Origin: Herbiconiux sp. SALV-R1
GTDB taxonomy: Bacteria > Actinomycetota > Actinomycetes > Actinomycetales > Microbacteriaceae
Direction: 5' to 3'
NCBI RefSeq assembly: GCF_013113715.1
Contig: NZ_CP053344.1
Span: forward strand, 1,922,001-1,986,000
DNA: 64,000 bases
In this document: in pieces, positions 55,137 to 63,296 of the stretch
Layout of the letters: every line of letters starts with the position of its first letter
Position numbering within the stretch: position 1 is the stretch's first letter
Position numbers and translations under genes: made by a program
The notes under the pieces: generated by a model
What the model saw: the letters and a program-made list of their open reading frames with translations, nothing else
Databases searched by the model: none
Told to the model about the DNA's origin: nothing

Positions 55137-55442
55137 TCAGTCGACGGAGCCCTGCTCCCTGGCCCTGATGAGGTCGGCGACGGTGATCTTGTGCGGCCGG
55201 TCGGGCAGCATGTCGGCGGTCATGCCGTCGACGAGCACCGCGGGGTTCAGGTTGAGGGCGCCCGCGATGCGCAGGATGGTGTGCAGCGACGGGTTCGCCT
55301 GGCCGCGCTCGATCTTGCCCAGGTTGGTGAAGTGGAGGCCGGCGAGTTCAGCGAGCTCCATCTGGTTGATCGCGAACTTCTGGCGTTCGTCACGGATGCG
55401 GGAGCCCAGCAGCCGTGCTGCGTCGGAAGGCGTCGAACTCAC
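55137..55442 (-). CDS. XRE-family transcriptional regulator
   Basis: A 101-residue helix-turn-helix protein. LGSRIRDERQKFAINQMELAELAGLHFTNLGKIERGQANPSLHTILRIAGAL is a Cro/C1-type HTH (residues ~12-65). The C-terminal ~30 residues are short (HKITVADLIRAREQGSVD). It lies ~100 bp downstream of the ATP-grasp fusion on the same strand and could regulate the nearby genes; no operator was matched to it. Confidence 0.85.
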   Translation of the reverse strand: MSSTPSDAARLLGSRIRDERQKFAINQMELAELAGLHFTNLGKIERGQANPSLHTILRIAGALNLNPAVLVDGMTADMLPDRPHKITVADLIRAREQGSVD

Positions 55443-55545: not shown

Positions 55546-58500
55546 TCATAGCCCGGAGCGCGTGACCAGGGGCACGGCGACCCCGCGCACGACGAGTTCG
55601 AGCGCGGCCCAGCCGAGGCGCCGGCGCCAGGACAGATGGCGGGTCGAGACGGCGGTGTACTCGAGCTCGGGCTCGGCACCGCGGTGGCGCTTGAAGTCGG
55701 CGACGCCGCTGGAGTTGTGGAGCTCGACCCCCGCGGCGTGGGCCCGTCGGGCCACCAGGAGGCTGAGCATGCGGTAGAGGCCGAGCCGCTGCGGGAGCGC
55801 GGTGTCGTAGCCGAAGACGGGGGCGGCGAGGTAGCCGTGCGCGACCGCGTAGCCGAAGACGCCGTCGACGCGGCCGTCGGGGCGCTGCAGGAGCACGAAG
55901 CGCAGGAAGCCCGCGCGCTGGGCAGCGCCGACGAACTCGGCCGTGTAGCGGGGGTTGAGCGGCGAGTACTTCTCGACGTACAGCAGGCGGTAGAGGTGAG
56001 CGATGCGGTCGCGGAGCTCGGGCGACGACGTGCCCGTCGCCGGATCGAGCGGGGCGTCGACCTCCCGGTACCCCGAGCGGTCGAAGACCGCGCGGTCGCG
56101 GGCGGTGTCGCGGGGGCCCTCCCAAACGCTCGTGCTCGTCGGCGTGAAGAGCACGCTGCGCGACGGGATGAGGCGGTAGCCGGCGCGCCGCAGCACCTGC
56201 GGGTTCGTGCTGCGCCTGCCGTGCACGCTGCGCCAGGCGATCGCGCAGTCGGGGTGCTCCAGGGCGAGTCTGCGGGTGAGTGCGCGCAGCTCCGTCTCGG
56301 CCAGTTCGGGGAGCAGATTCGTCGACACGAGCGCGTTGCCGACGATGACGGTGCGGTCGAGCCGGGCGGGGGCGACGAGCCGGTCGAGCACCGAGATGAC
56401 GACACCGGCGATCGCGCGGAGGGCGCGGGAGTCGAGCTCGTGGAGCTCCTCGCGGGCGTAGCCGATGAAGTGGGTGCGAGGTGCGACGACGTAGCTCAGC
56501 GGCTCGTCGGTGGCGCGGTCGCCTCTTTGGCTCGCGGGAGGCGGGGCGGTGACGGGGACGGTCTCACCCGACACCTCGACCGTGCTCAGCTCGCCCGCGA
56601 GGTTCGGCGCGAGCGCCGCCAGTCCGCCTTCGCGCGCGATCTCCTCGACCAGTCGTGCTCCCCACCGAGGATCGCGCTCGGCGCCACGCGACACCGGGCC
56701 GTTCCACTCGAGATCGTGGGTCGAGGCGGCGGTGAGCGGAACGCGCTCGCTGGCCGCGGTGCGCACCTGCACCGCGAGCGAGCGGAGCAGCGCCGGAGTG
56801 CCCACCCCGTCGCCTCGGGTGACCAGTGCATCCGGCGCCCCCAGCTGACGCAGAAACGCGACCGCATCACGCCGACTCCGGATGCTTCCAGCGGCCATGA
56901 CATGCGGCAGCCCCAGCCGAGCCGCCTCCCGCGACGCCGTGAAGAGGCGGCCGCCCGCGGTCGTGTCGCCACCCCACGTATCGGCCGCAGGCGCGGATGG
57001 GTGGGGTTCGGCCGCCACCGCAGCGGAGTTACCGGACCGACCGGCGACCGCTACCGCCCCGGCGGAGCTCGCGGACGGGTGGGGCGCGCCCATCACCGAG
57101 GCGGAGCCGGAGGGCGGGTAGCGATCGGCCACCACCGCGGTCGAGTCGCCGGAATGCCCATGCTCGGCCACTATCGCGGCGGGGCCAGAAATCACGGCGG
57201 GGTCGGCGGCGGTGGTGGCGGACGTGGTGGTGGCGGGGGTAGCTGACGCGGGGGCGGCGGACGCGGAGGTGGCTGAGGCGCTGGTGGTCGCGGGGGCGGG
57301 GGTGGCGAACGCGGGAGTGGCGGGGGTTGCTGACGCGGGGGTGGCGGACGTGGTGGAGTCAGACGCGGGGGCTGCGGACACGGGGATGGCGGACGCGGGG
57401 GCGGCGGAAGCGGAAGTGGCGGACGCGGGGGCGGCAGAAGCGGGGGTGGCTGAGGCGCTGGTGGCGGATGCGGGGGCGGCGGACGCGCTGGACGGCGGCG
57501 CGGGGGTGGACAGCACGGCAGGGGTGGGGGGCACGGGGGTGCCGGACGCGGGGGCGGCCGACGCGCTGGTCAGCGGCGCGGGGGCGACCGACGCGCTGGT
57601 CAGCGGCGCGGGGGCGACCGACGCGCTGGTCGGCGGCGCGAGGGCGGCCGACGCGCTGGTGGGCGGCGCGGGGGTGGACGGCACGGCAGGGGTGGGGGGC
57701 GCGGGGGTGGGTGGGGTGAAGGCGTGCGGGAGGTGGTCGGTAGGGGTGAAGAGGTGGATGCCGCTGGTGGAGCGGGGGTTGCATTCGAGGAGGGTGATGC
57801 CGTGGGGGGTGGCGATGAGGTCGAGGCCGAACTGGCCGGTGAGGTGGAGGGAGGCGGCGAGGCGGGTCGCGGCGGCGAACGCCTTGGCGGCGGCGCCGGT
57901 GCGGTGGTCGAGGCGCTCGAAAGAGACGGCGGCGCCGGTGCCGAAGCGCCAGGCGGGGCGGTAGGCGACGAAGGCGGTGAGGCGGCCGGCGACGCTGACG
58001 GCCGTGGTGCAGAGTTCCTCGCCCACGACACGCTCCTGGAGCAGCCACGGCGCATCGGGGTGGATGCCGCGCAGCTCGGGCAGCGGCTCACCGCGGTCGA
58101 TGCGCAACACCTGAGTTCCGAAGCGGGAGAAGGCGGGCTTGGCGATGAGCGTGGGAGAGTCGCTCCCCCGGCCCGCCGAGCGGCGTCGCCAGGCGATGCC
58201 CGAGGTGATGACCTCGGTCTCGGGTGCCCGTAGGCCGAGCTCGGTGACGAGGGAGACGAATGCGGCCTTGTCGTGGAGCCGCGTCAGGGTCGGTAGGTCG
58301 GGCGCGAACAGAGCGCCCTCGAGATCTCCGCCTGCACCGCGTGCGTCCCCCGAGTGATTGGGCGCCACCGCACCTCCCGCGAGCCAGAAGATCTCCTCGC
58401 AGGTCGGCACCACGAGATCGACGGAGTGCCTCGCCACGATCCCGGCGATGGCGGCGCGGTACTCCTCGGGCCGAAAGCGCGCCGACGGCACACGGTAGGC

Positions 58501-58671
58501 CCTCGTCACCGACCTCGACCGCGAAGCGAGCGCCGGCTGACTGTCGGCGGTGAACACCGTCGCGCCGTCGGCGGCGAACAGGCGGGCGAGGTCGAGGGCG
58601 ACGGGCGCCCGCGAGCCCGTCACGAGCACACGGCGCCCACTCGGCCAGGGAGCGACGTCGCTTCCGCTCAC
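55546..58671 (-). CDS. ATP-grasp / GNAT-like fusion protein with ~250-residue low-complexity insert
   Basis: A 1041-residue protein from GTG 58671 (GGAGACGGG upstream; overlaps the SRPBCC stop). Residues ~10-100 are a Rossmann-like lead (RRVLVTGSRAPVALDLARLF). Residues ~110-310 are an ATP-grasp core (LIAKPAFSRFGTQVLRI, LLQERVVGEEL, FGLDLIATPHGITLLECNPRSTSGIHLF). Residues ~318-565 are Ala/Pro/Ser/Thr low-complexity. Residues ~570-670 look like the end of the ATP-grasp part (ASTHDLEWNGP). Residues ~730-1041 contain a GNAT-like acyltransferase (GFLRFVLLQRPDGRVDGVFGYAVAHGY). An amide- or peptide-ligase plus acyl-transfer role is inferred; substrates are unknown. Confidence 0.78.
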   Translation of the reverse strand: MSGSDVAPWPSGRRVLVTGSRAPVALDLARLFAADGATVFTADSQPALASRSRSVTRAYRVPSARFRPEEYRAAIAGIVARHSVDLVVPTCEEIFWLAGGAVAPNHSGDARGAGGDLEGALFAPDLPTLTRLHDKAAFVSLVTELGLRAPETEVITSGIAWRRRSAGRGSDSPTLIAKPAFSRFGTQVLRIDRGEPLPELRGIHPDAPWLLQERVVGEELCTTAVSVAGRLTAFVAYRPAWRFGTGAAVSFERLDHRTGAAAKAFAAATRLAASLHLTGQFGLDLIATPHGITLLECNPRSTSGIHLFTPTDHLPHAFTPPTPAPPTPAVPSTPAPPTSASAALAPPTSASVAPAPLTSASVAPAPLTSASAAPASGTPVPPTPAVLSTPAPPSSASAAPASATSASATPASAAPASATSASAAPASAIPVSAAPASDSTTSATPASATPATPAFATPAPATTSASATSASAAPASATPATTTSATTAADPAVISGPAAIVAEHGHSGDSTAVVADRYPPSGSASVMGAPHPSASSAGAVAVAGRSGNSAAVAAEPHPSAPAADTWGGDTTAGGRLFTASREAARLGLPHVMAAGSIRSRRDAVAFLRQLGAPDALVTRGDGVGTPALLRSLAVQVRTAASERVPLTAASTHDLEWNGPVSRGAERDPRWGARLVEEIAREGGLAALAPNLAGELSTVEVSGETVPVTAPPPASQRGDRATDEPLSYVVAPRTHFIGYAREELHELDSRALRAIAGVVISVLDRLVAPARLDRTVIVGNALVSTNLLPELAETELRALTRRLALEHPDCAIAWRSVHGRRSTNPQVLRRAGYRLIPSRSVLFTPTSTSVWEGPRDTARDRAVFDRSGYREVDAPLDPATGTSSPELRDRIAHLYRLLYVEKYSPLNPRYTAEFVGAAQRAGFLRFVLLQRPDGRVDGVFGYAVAHGYLAAPVFGYDTALPQRLGLYRMLSLLVARRAHAAGVELHNSSGVADFKRHRGAEPELEYTAVSTRHLSWRRRLGWAALELVVRGVAVPLVTRSGL
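57548..57667 (-). repeat. Four 30-bp tandem repeats in the low-complexity insert
   Basis: A 30-bp unit starting GCGGGGGCGGCCGACGCGCT occurs four times in register (57548, 57578, 57608, 57638), with few changes. On the coding strand it encodes a decapeptide of the APAPLTSASV type. A second related block is near 57500-57545. Confidence 0.88.
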
Positions 58672-59177
58672 CCCGTCTCCGCCACGCGGGCGCAGACGGC
58701 GATGCTGCGTCGCATGTAGCGCATCCAGAGGGGTCCGATCACTCGCCGCACCAGAAAGCGCCGACCGGGCAACGGCCGGTACCCGTAGCTCCACTCGATG
58801 ACCGAGCCTGCCGCGGTCGAACCGCCCGCACCGGTACCCGGCCGATAGCGCCAGCTCGCGACGGCATCGGAGACGACGAGCGACAGGATGCCCGTGAAGC
58901 GGTCGACCGCGTAGTCGAAGCGGCCCTCGCCGTCGGGCTCGTCCGGGCGGTCATAGCGGGTGATCCGCTCGCGGAAGCTCCCGCCGTCGGAGAGCAGCAC
59001 CGTGCGCTCCTGGCCGACCACGTTCCACGGACCGGTGGCGCCCCGCACACCGGCGACCGCCGGCAGCACGAGATACCCCGTGAACAGGGTGCTGTCGTCG
59101 CGCGGCACCACCCGGTCGAACGCCAGCTGCGACGACACCGCGGCGGGCGCGGACACTGCGAACCGCACGAGCTCCAT
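58668..59177 (-). CDS. SRPBCC-like protein
   Basis: A 169-residue cytoplasmic protein from ATG 59177 (MELVRFAVSAPAA). It has START/SRPBCC-like strands (NVVGQERTVLLSDGGSFRERITRYD, FDYAVDRFTGILSLVVSDAVASWRY, GSVIEWSYGYRPLPGRRFLV). The helix near the end is basic. Ligand binding is inferred from the fold family. Its TGA overlaps the GTG of the ATP-grasp fusion by 4 bp, so the two are translationally coupled. Confidence 0.7.
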   Translation of the reverse strand: MELVRFAVSAPAAVSSQLAFDRVVPRDDSTLFTGYLVLPAVAGVRGATGPWNVVGQERTVLLSDGGSFRERITRYDRPDEPDGEGRFDYAVDRFTGILSLVVSDAVASWRYRPGTGAGGSTAAGSVIEWSYGYRPLPGRRFLVRRVIGPLWMRYMRRSIAVCARVAETG

Positions 59178-59236
59178 TCCCCCACCGTAGCCCGTGGGTG
59201 CCCCGTGCCACAGCCGCACACCCTAGCCTGGGGAGC

Positions 59237-59527
59237 ATGAGCTCCTATCGCGTCACCATGATCGTCGGGCCCCTCGAGCTGGGCGTGAAGCCCGAGACCG
59301 TGCTGCCCACGCTCACCCAGGCCATCGCGGACTTCACCGTGGTGGAGTCGTCCGACATCGCCGTGGTCGCCGGGGCGCCCCGCGTGACGGTGCGGTTCAC
59401 CGCCGACACCGACGAGGCGGCGTTCCTCATCGCCGAGCAGGGCATCGACGGAGCCCGGGTCTCGGCCCAGCCCATCGCCTGGCGACTCACCCGGATGGTG
59501 CAGGGCCGCTGGGAGCCTCTCGACTGA
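59237..59527 (+). CDS. Small protein of unknown function
   Basis: A 96-residue protein from ATG 59237 (GGGAGC just before). Start MSSYRVTMIVGPLELGVKPETVLPTL; no signal peptide or clear motif. Codon use is normal for the genome. I do not recognise a family. Its end overlaps the convergent TM0106-type gene by 41 bp. Confidence 0.55.
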   Translation: MSSYRVTMIVGPLELGVKPETVLPTLTQAIADFTVVESSDIAVVAGAPRVTVRFTADTDEAAFLIAEQGIDGARVSAQPIAWRLTRMVQGRWEPLD

Positions 59528-62500
59528 GCCGCAGGAAGGCCGAGAGCGTCGCGAGTTCGCGCGCGTCGTAGGGCAGATGGTCGGCCAGCGCCGGTGAGTA
59601 CACCAGGTGCGCCGCCCATTTCGCGCGGGAGATGGCGACGTTCAGCCGGTTCTTCATGAGCAGGAACTCCATGCCGCGCGGCACCTCGGCCGCCGACGAG
59701 GCGGCGAGGGTGACGATCGCCACCACCGCCTCCCGGCCCTGGAACTTGTCGACGGTACCGACCGGCACGCCCTCGAGCCCCGCCGCGGCGAGGGCGGCAC
59801 GCACCGTCTCGACCTGCGCGTTGTAGGGCGCCACGACGATGACGTCGTCGAGCCCCAGCGGCCGAGCGCCGCCGCCGACCCCATCACCACCATTGCCCCC
59901 GCTGCCGTCGACGCCCCTGTCGCCTCCGACCCCGTCGCCTCCGCCCCCGTCGCCGTCGCCTCCGACCCCGTCGCCTCCTACCCCGTCGCCGTCGCCGTCG
60001 ACCCCGTCGCCGACCTCACCGTCGCCCTCGCGCCACAGGCGCCCGAGCACGCTTCTCACGATCTCGACCACCACCTCGGCCTCCGCCACCGACGACGTCG
60101 CGTCGCCGTGATGCACCACCGGATGCACGCTGAGCCCGGGCGAGACACCCTCGAGCGAGCGGTCGGTGGTCTCGGGCAGCTTCGAGTGCAGCGCGCCCTC
60201 GTAGGAGAGCTCGCTGACCGGGGCGCACACCGCGGGATGCATCCGCCAGCTCAGGTCGAGGAAGTAGCCGAGGTTCGCGGGAAGCACGTCGTGGCCGTCG
60301 CTCAGCCAGCCGAGTGCCGAGCTGTCGACCGCCTCAGGATGCACGCCCTGGCTCACCTGCGGAAGCTGCTGGGGGTCGCCGAGCAGCAGCAGATTGCGCG
60401 CGGCGACGCTCACCGCGATGGTGTTCGCGAGCGAGTACTGCCCCGCCTCGTCGATGACGAGCAGGTCGAGGCGACGCCGGGGCACGCGGCCGACGTTGGT
60501 GAAGTCCCACGCCGTTCCGCCGACCACCACGCCCCGGCCTGCCTCGGCCGCCTCGTGCAGGAACCTGCCGAGTCCGTTCGGACGCTTCGGCAGAGCCGTG
60601 TAGACGGTTCCCTCGTGCTCGTCGACCTTCGCCACCGAGCCGGCGTCGAGGCCCGCCCGCACGACGGCCGCGAGCATGTTCTCGACGACGGCGTGCGACT
60701 GGCCGACGACTCCGACCGTCCAGCCGTGGTCGCGTACCAGCTCGGCGATCACCCGGGCACCCGTGTAGGTCTTGCCCGTTCCGGGCGGACCTTGCACGGC
60801 GAGGTAGGAGTCGTCGAGCGCGAGCAGGGTGTCGCGGATGGCCGCGGCCATGCCGTCTGCTCCCACCGGTTCGGGCCCCAGCCCGTCGCGTCGGCGGGGC
60901 GGCCTCCGGCGGAGCAGGTCGACGGCGGCGTCGGCGGGAAAGGCGGGCAGCGCGGTCGCGAGGGCCCGGCCCCAGGAGGTGATCGCCGCCTGCAGGGGCG
61001 CCGTCATGGGTGGTCGCGCCGGCACCACCGCCAAGGGTATGGCGCGGTACCGCTCGCCCCCGAGGGGTAGAGCCTCCTCGAGGTGGTACACGGTCGCGCC
61101 GTCGGCGGCGACGGTGACGTCGGTGATGAGCGTGCGGTCGTGGGCCACCCGCTCGCTCGCCCGCGACCGGGGTGAGGGCCACGGATGCGGCGGGTCGTAC
61201 ACGACGAAACGCCGGCTCGCCCCCGCCTCCAGCCGGCTGCCCGGGGCGAGCTCACCGCGGAGCCGCACCAGCCTGCGCTCCGCGCGGCGGGCGCCGTCGC
61301 TCGACCAGTCGTCGTCGACGCGCGCGGCGCTCACGATCAGCACGTCGCGGCTCTCGGCCCACTCCTCCACCGGCTGGTCGAGCCGGTTGTAGTGCTCCCA
61401 CCAGAACGACTTCTCCTCGCGCCGGTGGTAGTCGATCGCCGCCGCCGCGAGCGCCAGGGCCGTCTGGTCGGCCGAGCGGCCGCCACCGGCGGGAGACTCC
61501 CCGTCGACGGGGCTGTCGGGTGCTCCTCCGGCCGCGGGGAGATGATCGATCCACGCCACGAGCGCGCGGTGCAGAGCGCTCGGCTCGAAGGCGGCCTCGA
61601 CCTCGCTGCGGGTGGGCGGCGCGGCCTCCTCGTCATCGCTCGGCTGCGGCACCGCGACGGGCGGATCGGGGCGCACGCCGTTCTCGGCGGCACGATCGCG
61701 CAGCCAGTCGCGGAGGCCGAGGGTGCTCACGCAGTCGTACTCGTTGTAGTCGGCGATCTCACGCAGCTGCACCTCGGCCTCGGCCGCCGCCGCGGGGTCG
61801 GTGCGCCCGGCCTCGCGCAGCTCGGCGTAGTGCACGTAGGCCGTGATCGAGTCGGCACCCGTGGTGACCTCGCTGTCGCGGTAGCGCTCCCCCATGTAGA
61901 GCGGCTCGAGCTTCTTCAGACCGTACGAGGGTGAGCCCACTCTGATGGACTTCTTCACCAGCGGGTAGAGGTCGACGAGCACGCCGCGGCGCAGCAGCTC
62001 GTCGAGCTGCTCCTCCCCCACCCCGTGACGAGCGCACAGCGACTGCAGGTGCGCGCGCTCGTAGTTGGCGTAGTGGTAGACGTGCAGGCCCGGGTGCCTG
62101 CGGAGCCGTGCGGTGACGTGGTCGAGGAAGGCGACGAGCGCCCGCTTCTCCTCCGCGTGGTCGTGGGCCCAGAACGGCCGGAAGACCGTGCCGCCGGGCA
62201 GCAGCGGGTCGTGCTCGACCAGACCGAAGAGGTAGTCGAGGCCCCAGTCGTGGCCGTCGCCCTCGGTGTAGAGCGGGTCGCCCTCGAAATCGAAGAAGAT
62301 GTCGCCCTCGTCGGGCTCGGGCAGCGCACCGAGGGGAGCGGCGTCGTAGACGCGGTAGACCAGACCTCCCGAGCGAGGCAGCCCGGCCGGAGGCGCCGCC
62401 TGCATGCGTGCCTGGTCGCGCAGCGACTCGAGAGTGGAGGCGGCGAGGGCGGGAACCGCGCCCGTCGAGGCGGCGAGCTCGTCGATGGTGGTGATGCCCG

Positions 62501-63296
62501 CGGCGCGCAGGCGCTCGCGCTGCGACGGGCGCATGCCGGCCACCAGCAGCAGGTCGCGGTGCAGCTCCACCTCGGGCTGGCACACCTCGCAGCGGCCGCA
62601 GGCGGTGTACCTCGGGTCGCCCCACTGCACCGCCTCGTCGTCGAGACGGGAGTCGAGCAGCACTTCGAGCCGCTCCCGACGATCGAGGTAGACGGGGAGG
62701 ATGTCGCGCAGCGCGTGGCTCGAGGTCGACCCGTCGCCGAGCAGCAGGTGCACCTGCTCCTCGACCGGGATTCCGGAGCGCACGAGCTGGTCGGCGTAGG
62801 CCGCCACCTGGAGCAGCGCCGTGACCTTCGCCCGCCGCGCCAGCTTCGTGTCGTACACCGCGTACCGGGGGGCTCCGGCCTCCGACTCCCCCACGCGCAC
62901 CAGGAAGTCGGCGTAGCCGAGGAAACGGCCGTCGAAGAACGCCGCCTGGAACACCACGTCGGCGCCGGCCCGCAGTGCCGCGAGCGACTCCGCCTTGGCC
63001 GTGACGAGACCGTCGGGGAAGGCCCGCTCGGGCCGGTCGATCTCGGCGACCCCGCGCCCCTCGGCGGGACGGAACGGGCCGAACCGCTCCCGGTACTGCT
63101 CGAGCACGCGCTCCTCATGACGGTCGCCGAGTCGCGCCGCCCGTTCGAGCATGGGATCGTCGGGGTCGGGCGGCGTCTCGACCCGGCCGAGCTTGGCGTC
63201 GAGACGCCGCACCAGGTTGAACTCGCAACGCGCTGCCGCGGTGAGGTCGGTGGCACTGTAGAGCACGGTGGGCCCCGGCCCGTCGACGACTATCAC
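59487..63296 (-). CDS. TM0106-type RecB-like nuclease fused to SF1 helicase
   Basis: A 1269-residue protein from GTG 63296 (GAGGGAG upstream). The N-terminal RecB-like nuclease (~1-260) shows YDTKLARRAKVTALLQVAAYADQL and a Cys cluster (ACGRCEVC). An RNase H-like exonuclease domain (~310-540; FFDFEGDPLY, YNEYDCVSTLGLRDWL) follows. The C-terminal helicase (~800-1269) has VQGPPGTGKTYTG (Walker A, ~835), LLVIDEAGQ (Walker B, ~945) and GDPQQLPQVSQG. A Gly/Asp repeat (~1089-1140) interrupts the helicase. It probably acts in DNA repair or defence; the family role is not defined. Confidence 0.88.
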   Translation of the reverse strand: MIVVDGPGPTVLYSATDLTAAARCEFNLVRRLDAKLGRVETPPDPDDPMLERAARLGDRHEERVLEQYRERFGPFRPAEGRGVAEIDRPERAFPDGLVTAKAESLAALRAGADVVFQAAFFDGRFLGYADFLVRVGESEAGAPRYAVYDTKLARRAKVTALLQVAAYADQLVRSGIPVEEQVHLLLGDGSTSSHALRDILPVYLDRRERLEVLLDSRLDDEAVQWGDPRYTACGRCEVCQPEVELHRDLLLVAGMRPSQRERLRAAGITTIDELAASTGAVPALAASTLESLRDQARMQAAPPAGLPRSGGLVYRVYDAAPLGALPEPDEGDIFFDFEGDPLYTEGDGHDWGLDYLFGLVEHDPLLPGGTVFRPFWAHDHAEEKRALVAFLDHVTARLRRHPGLHVYHYANYERAHLQSLCARHGVGEEQLDELLRRGVLVDLYPLVKKSIRVGSPSYGLKKLEPLYMGERYRDSEVTTGADSITAYVHYAELREAGRTDPAAAAEAEVQLREIADYNEYDCVSTLGLRDWLRDRAAENGVRPDPPVAVPQPSDDEEAAPPTRSEVEAAFEPSALHRALVAWIDHLPAAGGAPDSPVDGESPAGGGRSADQTALALAAAAIDYHRREEKSFWWEHYNRLDQPVEEWAESRDVLIVSAARVDDDWSSDGARRAERRLVRLRGELAPGSRLEAGASRRFVVYDPPHPWPSPRSRASERVAHDRTLITDVTVAADGATVYHLEEALPLGGERYRAIPLAVVPARPPMTAPLQAAITSWGRALATALPAFPADAAVDLLRRRPPRRRDGLGPEPVGADGMAAAIRDTLLALDDSYLAVQGPPGTGKTYTGARVIAELVRDHGWTVGVVGQSHAVVENMLAAVVRAGLDAGSVAKVDEHEGTVYTALPKRPNGLGRFLHEAAEAGRGVVVGGTAWDFTNVGRVPRRRLDLLVIDEAGQYSLANTIAVSVAARNLLLLGDPQQLPQVSQGVHPEAVDSSALGWLSDGHDVLPANLGYFLDLSWRMHPAVCAPVSELSYEGALHSKLPETTDRSLEGVSPGLSVHPVVHHGDATSSVAEAEVVVEIVRSVLGRLWREGDGEVGDGVDGDGDGVGGDGVGGDGDGGGGDGVGGDRGVDGSGGNGGDGVGGGARPLGLDDVIVVAPYNAQVETVRAALAAAGLEGVPVGTVDKFQGREAVVAIVTLAASSAAEVPRGMEFLLMKNRLNVAISRAKWAAHLVYSPALADHLPYDARELATLSAFLRLSREAPSGPAPSG
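59876..60030 (-). repeat. Gly/Asp-encoding low-complexity repeat in the helicase
   Basis: Short units of CCGTCGCCTCC/CCGTCGCCGTC recur on the plus strand, encoding GDGVGGDGVGG-like peptide on the minus strand. The block sits between RSVLGRLWRE and LGLDDVIVVAPYNAQ, inside the second helicase domain. Confidence 0.85.

Follow-up and report, generated by a model that had tools for sequence, protein, structure and literature searches.

ATP-grasp ligases and FemX-like transferases represent two well-known routes to amide bonds outside the ribosome and the nonribosomal peptide synthetases. We describe here a gene of Herbiconiux sp. SALV-R1 whose product combines an ATP-grasp part with a GNAT-like part; it lies on the minus strand at positions 55546–58671 of a stretch of 64,000 nucleotides (contig NZ_CP053344.1, positions 1,922,001 to 1,986,000), hereafter called the window. 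Two groups of proteins are precedents for an ATP-grasp and a GNAT domain on a single chain, and the pathway context that is marked by the present fusion is new. In the protein acetyltransferases Pat/PatZ, an ATP-grasp-containing acyl-CoA (coenzyme A)-synthetase-like part is joined to a GNAT domain (Acetyltransf_1), and N-acetylglutaminylglutamine synthase (Ngg) is made up of a GNAT plus an ATP-grasp domain, the latter of a different family and in the reverse domain order compared with the window protein. In its description (PMC8070244), Ngg is credited with N-acetylation and peptide-bond formation by one protein, and it is thus a precedent for acylation and peptide bonding by a single chain. 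The window protein belongs to neither group: five NCBIfam families matched at E ≤ 1, none of which is named Ngg, and the only Pfam families that matched at E ≤ 1 were PF02655 and PF15632, neither of which is among the domains of Pat/PatZ.

For the ATP-grasp half, the closest described systems are RizA-type L-amino-acid ligases and PylC, with which it shares the fold. RizA (4wd3) was the best Foldseek match, with an E-value of 1.1e-12, and PylC (4ffr) and a ligase of Bacillus licheniformis (3vot) were further fold matches. In contrast, the window protein gave no sequence-level match to RizA or PylC in the PDB, and it has the GNAT domain in addition. The predicted fold of the GNAT half is like that of aminoacyl-tRNA-dependent GNAT transferases, at modest TM-scores, i.e. 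Sbb17/Sba18, FemX and MprF as well as VlmA, DhpH-C, PacB and Orf11; unlike FemX and MprF, to which it has no PDB sequence match, it is fused to an ATP-grasp protein. GNAT-fold aminoacyl-tRNA transferases are described for natural-product pathways in two articles (PMC12945691, PMC2922099). The Phe-Lys of an FKRxRG motif in the GNAT half is reminiscent, at the level of the motif, of DhpH-C Phe328-Lys329 and FemX Lys305 as described in the first of these, a review (PMC12945691).

Among open-licence papers, none was found that describes this gene cluster or assigns its product. The Herbiconiux pangenome study (PMC10011130) reports, in the part available, antiSMASH clusters including carotenoid (14/14), T3PKS and NAPAA, and among the clusters named there is nothing like the gene set of the fusion. 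As far as their available text goes, the reports on puromycin Pur6 (PMC11641026) and scleric acid SclG (PMC6335953) have no bearing on the fusion.

Two enzyme folds in one polypeptide

The gene is read from 58671 to 55546 and encodes 1041 amino acids. The open reading frame (ORF) is uninterrupted throughout, a long insert included, and the plus-strand reading of 55546–58671 has stops. The longest minus-strand ORF at the locus runs from 58794 to 55546; the start is likely the GTG at 58671, which overlaps the TGA stop codon of the upstream SRPBCC gene (GTGA). The protein consists of four parts: an ATP-grasp part (residues 13–322), an insert (331–580), the end of the ATP-grasp protein (583–658) and the GNAT-like domain (690–1041). 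Judged by profile and model matches, the product is a real two-part bacterial enzyme, with an ATP-driven bond-forming half and a half predicted to fold like amino-acid-transferring enzymes.

The ATP-grasp part (57706..58635, minus strand) matched the NCBIfam profile PRK06849 (NF005315) over residues 13–322 with an E-value of 7.7e-64. The score of 216 bits, versus a curated cut-off of 406, does not make the protein an equivalog member; the PRK06849 group, which bears the name 'hypothetical protein', is the nearest profile. A stand-alone ATP-grasp protein of Paenibacillus scored 381.5 bits, and the profile search revealed no second match in the window's own genome. PF02655 was over its curated cut-off (29.8 versus 23.2 bits, E = 7.5e-7). 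Residues K178, D284, E296, N298 and R300 were invariant in all 13 aligned ATP-grasp proteins, and the first four, which presumably have nucleotide and metal roles (Lys, Asp, Glu-x-Asn), are kept in all 17 fusions (the window protein, 14 others of the genus, and those of the genomes G112 and G244). The full-length structure model had a predicted local distance difference test (pLDDT) value of 72 and a predicted template modelling score (pTM) of 0.60. With it, Foldseek retrieved 369 PDB entries at E ≤ 0.001, of which the 50 listed were ATP-grasp enzymes (E-values from 1e-12 to 1e-9, target-normalised TM-score up to 0.64), headed by RizA, a split carbamoyl-phosphate-synthase-like protein, PurK and PylC and including GAR synthetase. 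A PDB sequence search with the whole window protein gave no informative match. Residues 583–658 (56698..56925, minus strand) correspond in alignment to the C-terminal portion of ATP-grasp proteins that are encoded separately; the correspondence extends to the conserved THDLEWNG motif, with which this piece ends.

The GNAT-like domain (55546..56604, minus strand) carries the motifs GYD...GLYRMLS and SSG..xFKRxRG. Modelled alone, it reached a pLDDT of 85.7 and a pTM of 0.84, and the model had 102 PDB matches at E ≤ 0.001, of which the 50 listed were mostly named GNAT-type transferases, the remainder being unnamed. The best listed fold matches were the peptide synthases Sbb17/Sba18, followed by L-PGS, A-PGS and MprF, with FemX at rank 24. 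PF13480 was the sole Pfam family that matched among the 12 members of a GNAT alignment (A1), six of which did so at E ≤ 0.1 (best 1.9e-8). A search of the window's whole genome with PF13480 gave nothing at E ≤ 0.001. The fused relative of G244, a genome of another family of the same order, exceeded the cut-offs of both families within a single ORF (PF02655, 36.8 over 23.2; PF13480, 23.2 over 22). The Phe-Lys of FKRxRG is invariant in all members of the alignment, the motif is present in 27 of 30 GNAT sequences, and K994 of the GNAT half is kept in each of the 17 fusions.

The preliminary description of this DNA had proposed an ATP-grasp core at residues ~110–310 that continues at ~570–670, a GNAT-like domain at ~730–1041 and a low-complexity insert, all in one polypeptide. 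Its coordinates were correct, the gene being on the minus strand, and the overall architecture was borne out by the profiles, the model and the fused relative. The core falls within the span of the profile match and has the matching fold, the continuation corresponds to the piece shared with stand-alone proteins, and structure prediction recovered both folds. The profile searches supported the proposal in part, with PF02655 over its cut-off in the window protein and PF13480 in relatives only; the GNAT-like assignment is supported by the model and the homologues and not by a Pfam match of the window protein itself.

Fused and separate forms and their partner genes

The GNAT half was found in all 16 Herbiconiux genomes. 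Outside the genus it is rare: three of 297 genomes of the order had it, the window's own included, and in a sample of the phylum the window's own genome was the only one of 396 with a match. Four to six candidates were scored per genome in these two samples, so that weak relatives could be missed. A scan of a genome collection gave 15 loci (L001–L015), and 18 plasmid records matched, of which 15 were listed and eight were looked at. The three Herbiconiux loci of the scan (L001–L003, which are the genomes G005, G012 and G010 and were counted once) have the fusion. The two proteins are encoded by adjacent separate genes in Nonomuraea, Symbiobacteriaceae, Paraburkholderia and Deinococcus, and lie within one cluster in Paenibacillus, Roseateles, Shinella and Rhizobium. 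Both arrangements that had been considered for homologues thus exist, separate genes at 15 loci and a fusion in 17 proteins.

Midpoint-rooted trees were built from 30 sequences of the GNAT half and 33 of the ATP-grasp half. In both, the 17 fusions group together to the exclusion of all other sequences, with a support of 0.993 for the GNAT and 0.997 for the ATP-grasp half. Pairwise distances within one half are correlated with those within the other, with coefficients of 0.885 for 11 representatives, 0.96 for 13 separate pairs and 0.955 for the full set of 30; with 9,999 permutations, p reached its lower limit of 1e-4. The two genes are thus co-inherited also where they are unfused. A common history of the species adds to a correlation of this kind. 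Sequence comparison therefore argues that the fusion arose by a single event from two genes that elsewhere are adjacent or in one cluster.

At eight of the 15 separate-pair loci a ketosynthase III is present in the stretch, usually together with an OleD-like reductase, an F390-synthetase-like adenylating enzyme and an MBL hydrolase. In Paenibacillus (L004, L015) both genes are clustered with a ketosynthase III, an OleD-like reductase, an MBL hydrolase, an F390-synthetase-related protein and an SDR, the family names being taken from the proteins of L014, and in a Symbiobacteriaceae bin (L012, a contig of 5.5 kb) the pair occurs with ketosynthase and F390-like genes. Five of the eight plasmids looked at carry GNAT and ATP-grasp genes with the ketosynthase/reductase/MBL set, and two Deinococcus plasmids carry the pair alone. 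The annotation of the Roseateles plasmid gives both the GNAT gene and the presumed CoF-synthetase gene as hypothetical; the former was recognised by alignment. At a Halomonas-type locus (L011) a Rieske-type protein is encoded next, as visual inspection of its Cys-His motifs indicated. It should also be noted that on the plasmids of Roseateles (L019), Shinella (L022) and Rhizobium (L023) the ATP-grasp gene and the other cluster genes are in convergent orientation, and the former lies beside a Rieske protein. The five Nonomuraea loci (L005–L009) have adjacent ATP-grasp and GNAT genes; an acyl-CoA-ligase-like gene follows the pair in L006, by NCBIfam and Pfam, and likewise in L007–L009, by eye from ORF starts, and was not seen in L005. 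In all five the pair is located directly behind a gene that resembles glmM by eye, before which rplM/rpsI-like genes were likewise noticed in L006–L009.

The corresponding genes of Herbiconiux form a second locus. The F390-synthetase-related family TIGR02304 was over its cut-off in all 16 genomes of the genus, and in the window genome its gene is located at contig position ~2026557–2027996 (G000:C1), together with genes for an OleD-like reductase, a ketosynthase III, in whose sequence Cys, His and Asn are seen, a P450, a zinc alcohol dehydrogenase and a nitrilase-like protein. This order was found in all five second loci examined, of the 16 genomes. In G244 one operon contains the F390-like gene, the fusion, the ketosynthase III, the P450 and the OleD-like reductase, the ketosynthase and the P450 being 67% and 53% identical to those of the window genome, respectively. 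At the level of sequence, this operon is the strongest evidence that would tie the two loci together. In G112 the fusion and the OleD/MBL/F390/ketosynthase cluster are on different contigs. In the sample of the order TIGR02304 was over its cut-off in 15 of the 297 genomes, and all three GNAT carriers were among them (hypergeometric probability 1e-4, rising to 0.002 when the window genome is excluded, assuming the same 297 genomes in both scans). Five other genomes of the order (L069, L070, L072, L073 and L075) have tight clusters of OleD-like, MBL, F390-like and ketosynthase III genes with no GNAT match. A pathway core of these four proteins may exist without the ligase-transferase.

The Ole olefin/beta-lactone pathway (OleA, OleC and OleD) similarly combines an adenylating enzyme with a ketosynthase III and a reductase of the OleD kind; unlike it, the gene set described here includes ATP-grasp, GNAT and P450/Rieske proteins as extras. 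The reductase scored 152 bits versus a curated OleD cut-off of 580, which does not place it in the Ole beta-lactone pathway. The best PDB sequence matches of the ketosynthase were FabH-type synthases (4ryb, E = 1.1e-33), followed by weaker matches to OleA entries (3row, E = 3.9e-28). The adenylating enzyme matched TIGR02304 only, and PDB sequence searches with the F390-like protein and with the reductase gave no informative match.

Proposed function and competing explanations

With a moderate degree of confidence, we favour the view that the fusion is a bifunctional ligase/transferase of an acyl-amino-acid pathway, which in this strain would be spread over two loci. The fusion is probably part of a pathway, as yet undescribed, to a small molecule derived from a fatty acid. 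The ketosynthase and the reductase would produce a beta-hydroxy acyl chain, the F390-synthetase-like enzyme of the second locus would activate it, and the cytochrome P450 would oxidise it. The ATP-grasp half would use ATP to link a carboxylate and an amine, and the FemX/MprF-like GNAT half would add an activated aminoacyl (or acyl) group onto the same small molecule. The fusion would thus attach amino acids twice, by ligation through its ATP-grasp half and by transfer through its GNAT half; substrates and sequence of the steps are guesses. The likely product would be a small oxidised acyl-amino-acid or a lipodipeptide. That both halves are active, that the steps have a given order and that the pathway includes this strain we infer; the aminoacyl-tRNA donor and the product class are guesses. 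An activation followed by a transfer in the making of a small peptide, as suggested beforehand, is compatible with the predicted folds of both halves. Nothing specifically supported the modification of a surface polymer, which had been named as well. The genes that recur nearby (ketosynthase III, reductase, adenylating enzyme, MBL hydrolase, P450/Rieske) suggest the synthesis of a small molecule, and the surface-polymer role was dropped as first choice because no supporting neighbours were seen.

The nature of the donor is the point at which the most durable alternative departs from this proposal. The enzyme could be equally bifunctional, with a GNAT half that uses an acyl group on CoA or acyl carrier protein (ACP), delivered by the ketosynthase or the adenylating enzyme, and the product would be an N-acylated ATP-grasp dipeptide. 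An acyl-CoA or acyl-ACP donor is possible: PF13480 is the only Pfam family among the members of the GNAT alignment, the frequent ketosynthase III and F390-like partners would supply activated acyl groups, and Ngg is a precedent for N-acetylation and peptide-bond formation in one protein. However, matches to Q/R-x-x-G-x-G/A, the acetyl-CoA motif of classical GNATs, were scattered over the 30 GNAT sequences with no conserved position, and the structures that matched best by fold are those of tRNA-dependent enzymes of the transferase type. Because of these two results, which derive from sequences and models, aminoacyl-tRNA appears to be a more likely donor than acetyl-CoA, and we regard the acyl-donor alternative as conceivable but rather improbable. 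The basic C-terminal tail of the GNAT half is putatively a binding element that might contact tRNA or membrane, and an MprF-like role in lipid aminoacylation is conceivable.

Several observations weigh against an acyl-amino-acid pathway that is served by the fusion. In the window genome the fusion and the second locus are ~41–47 kb apart, so that their joint function has to be deduced. A ketosynthase III is not in the stretch at seven of the 15 separate-pair loci (five of Nonomuraea and two Deinococcus plasmids), and the F390-like family was over its cut-off in none of the five Nonomuraea genomes; the pair can thus function in their absence or with different partners. Conversely, 12 of the 15 genomes of the order with the F390-like family are without the GNAT half, P. 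polymyxa (L014) and the Halomonas-type loci L010, L011 and L013 have the cluster and the ATP-grasp gene but lack a GNAT relative within the stretch retrieved, and in Pontibacillus the ATP-grasp gene is in the cluster and no GNAT gene in the stretch. In addition, the GNAT half of the window protein is without any Pfam match, its TM-scores to double-GNAT folds of the MprF/FemX type are ~0.44–0.49 by query, and an hmmsearch of the GNAT profile against the PDB retrieved, up to an E-value of 10, two kinases only and neither FemX nor MprF.

These distances and absences would fit a different explanation, namely that the two enzymes form a unit of their own, for example for a dipeptide or for lipid aminoacylation, which was recruited by several clusters, and that the F390-OleD-ketosynthase III-P450 operon of the genus is separate from it. 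In addition to the ketosynthase-free pairs, the Nonomuraea genomes and the separation of the two loci, it is favoured by the fact that, throughout the genus, it is instead an SRPBCC gene that is conserved beside the fusion. On the other hand, the operon of G244 and the clusters of Paenibacillus, Paraburkholderia and Shinella unite both gene sets, and both are present in all 16 genomes of the genus. We therefore consider an independent unit unlikely, and retain the bifunctional ligase/transferase of an acyl-amino-acid pathway as the preferred interpretation.

The insert, the neighbouring genes and the wider context

The two pieces of the ATP-grasp protein are separated by an Ala/Pro/Ser/Thr insert (residues 331–580; 56932..57681, minus strand), much of which is underlain by a degenerate 15-bp tandem repeat (57233..57710; 31.7 copies, 65% matches). 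The low complexity noted earlier for residues 318–565 is reflected in a composition of 31% A, 19% P, 18% S and 12% T, and the insert is predicted to be disordered, with pLDDT values below 50 across residues 331–580 of the full-length model. Its base composition by codon position (0.66/0.85/0.88) is unlike that of the flanking domains because of the amino-acid content. A comparison of its length across close strains, as envisaged in the preliminary description, was made from the ATP-grasp core (HLF) to LGLPH in the 17 fusions; the fusion of G009 was excluded because its contig begins within the gene. This spacer is 277 residues long in the window protein versus 23–67 in the 16 others and 31 in the closest species (G015, with a GNAT core that is 86% identical), and the long insert is thus private to this strain. 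A conserved design is thereby ruled out; the insert represents a variable loop that has been expanded in this lineage only, on the basis of the degenerate 15-bp repeat. A second spacer, from EWNG to the GNAT core, also varies across the fusions, from 64 to 175 residues. Another GC-rich tandem repeat, with periods of 36 and 15 bp, is located at 59904–60031 of the window within the neighbouring nuclease-helicase gene, as if the strain were prone to growing such loops. That the insert is a functional element, either a secreted or surface-spanning linker rich in Pro, Ala, Ser and Thr or a regulatory switch, would fit its being in frame, long and strongly skewed in composition, but it is very improbable in view of the short spacers of the closest species and the other fusions, the predicted disorder and the comparable repeat in the nuclease gene. 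Instead, the insert would be a flexible loop that has grown by slippage, without a special role.

The order nuclease-helicase, SRPBCC, fusion and XRE regulator is kept at each of the 14 loci of the genus whose flanks are long enough. The SRPBCC/Polyketide_cyc2 protein of 171 amino acids (58668..59183, minus strand) is encoded directly upstream of the fusion, whose start its stop codon overlaps, and it is found upstream at each of these 14 loci; at L043, L052 and L053 ~1 kb separates the two genes, and in L001 (identical to L052) an aldo/keto reductase gene is present there. The XRE-type helix-turn-helix regulator (55137..55442, minus strand) lies downstream and was found at all 15 same-genus loci tested. 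A TM0106-family RecB-like nuclease fused to a helicase (59487..63296, minus strand) was present at the 14 loci and is probably unrelated in function. A dead or mis-assembled ORF, which the very skewed insert and a TGA noted in the frame of the GNAT half in one genus member (G009, locus L039, a fragmented assembly) might suggest, is scarcely credible, given that the matched frame is stop-free in the other 15 of the 16 genomes and that K178, D284, E296, N298 and K994 are kept in every fusion.

The fusion is real, open and present throughout the genus; it unites two co-inherited enzymes in a recurrent biosynthetic context, to which the insert is incidental. More broadly, and as a doubtful suggestion, the locus may represent an undescribed and widely scattered class of pathways, comprising a ketosynthase III, an OleD-like reductase, an F390-like adenylating enzyme, a P450 or Rieske protein, an ATP-grasp ligase and a tRNA-dependent GNAT, in which one polypeptide would form two successive amide bonds, one with ATP and one with aminoacyl-tRNA, on a fatty-acid-derived core. 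The ketosynthase and adenylating partners recur in three phyla, Actinomycetota, Bacillota and Pseudomonadota, and the five-gene operon of G244 makes the question of the pathway directly testable. A natural fusion of both routes to amide bonds would give a compact handle on a class of metabolites.

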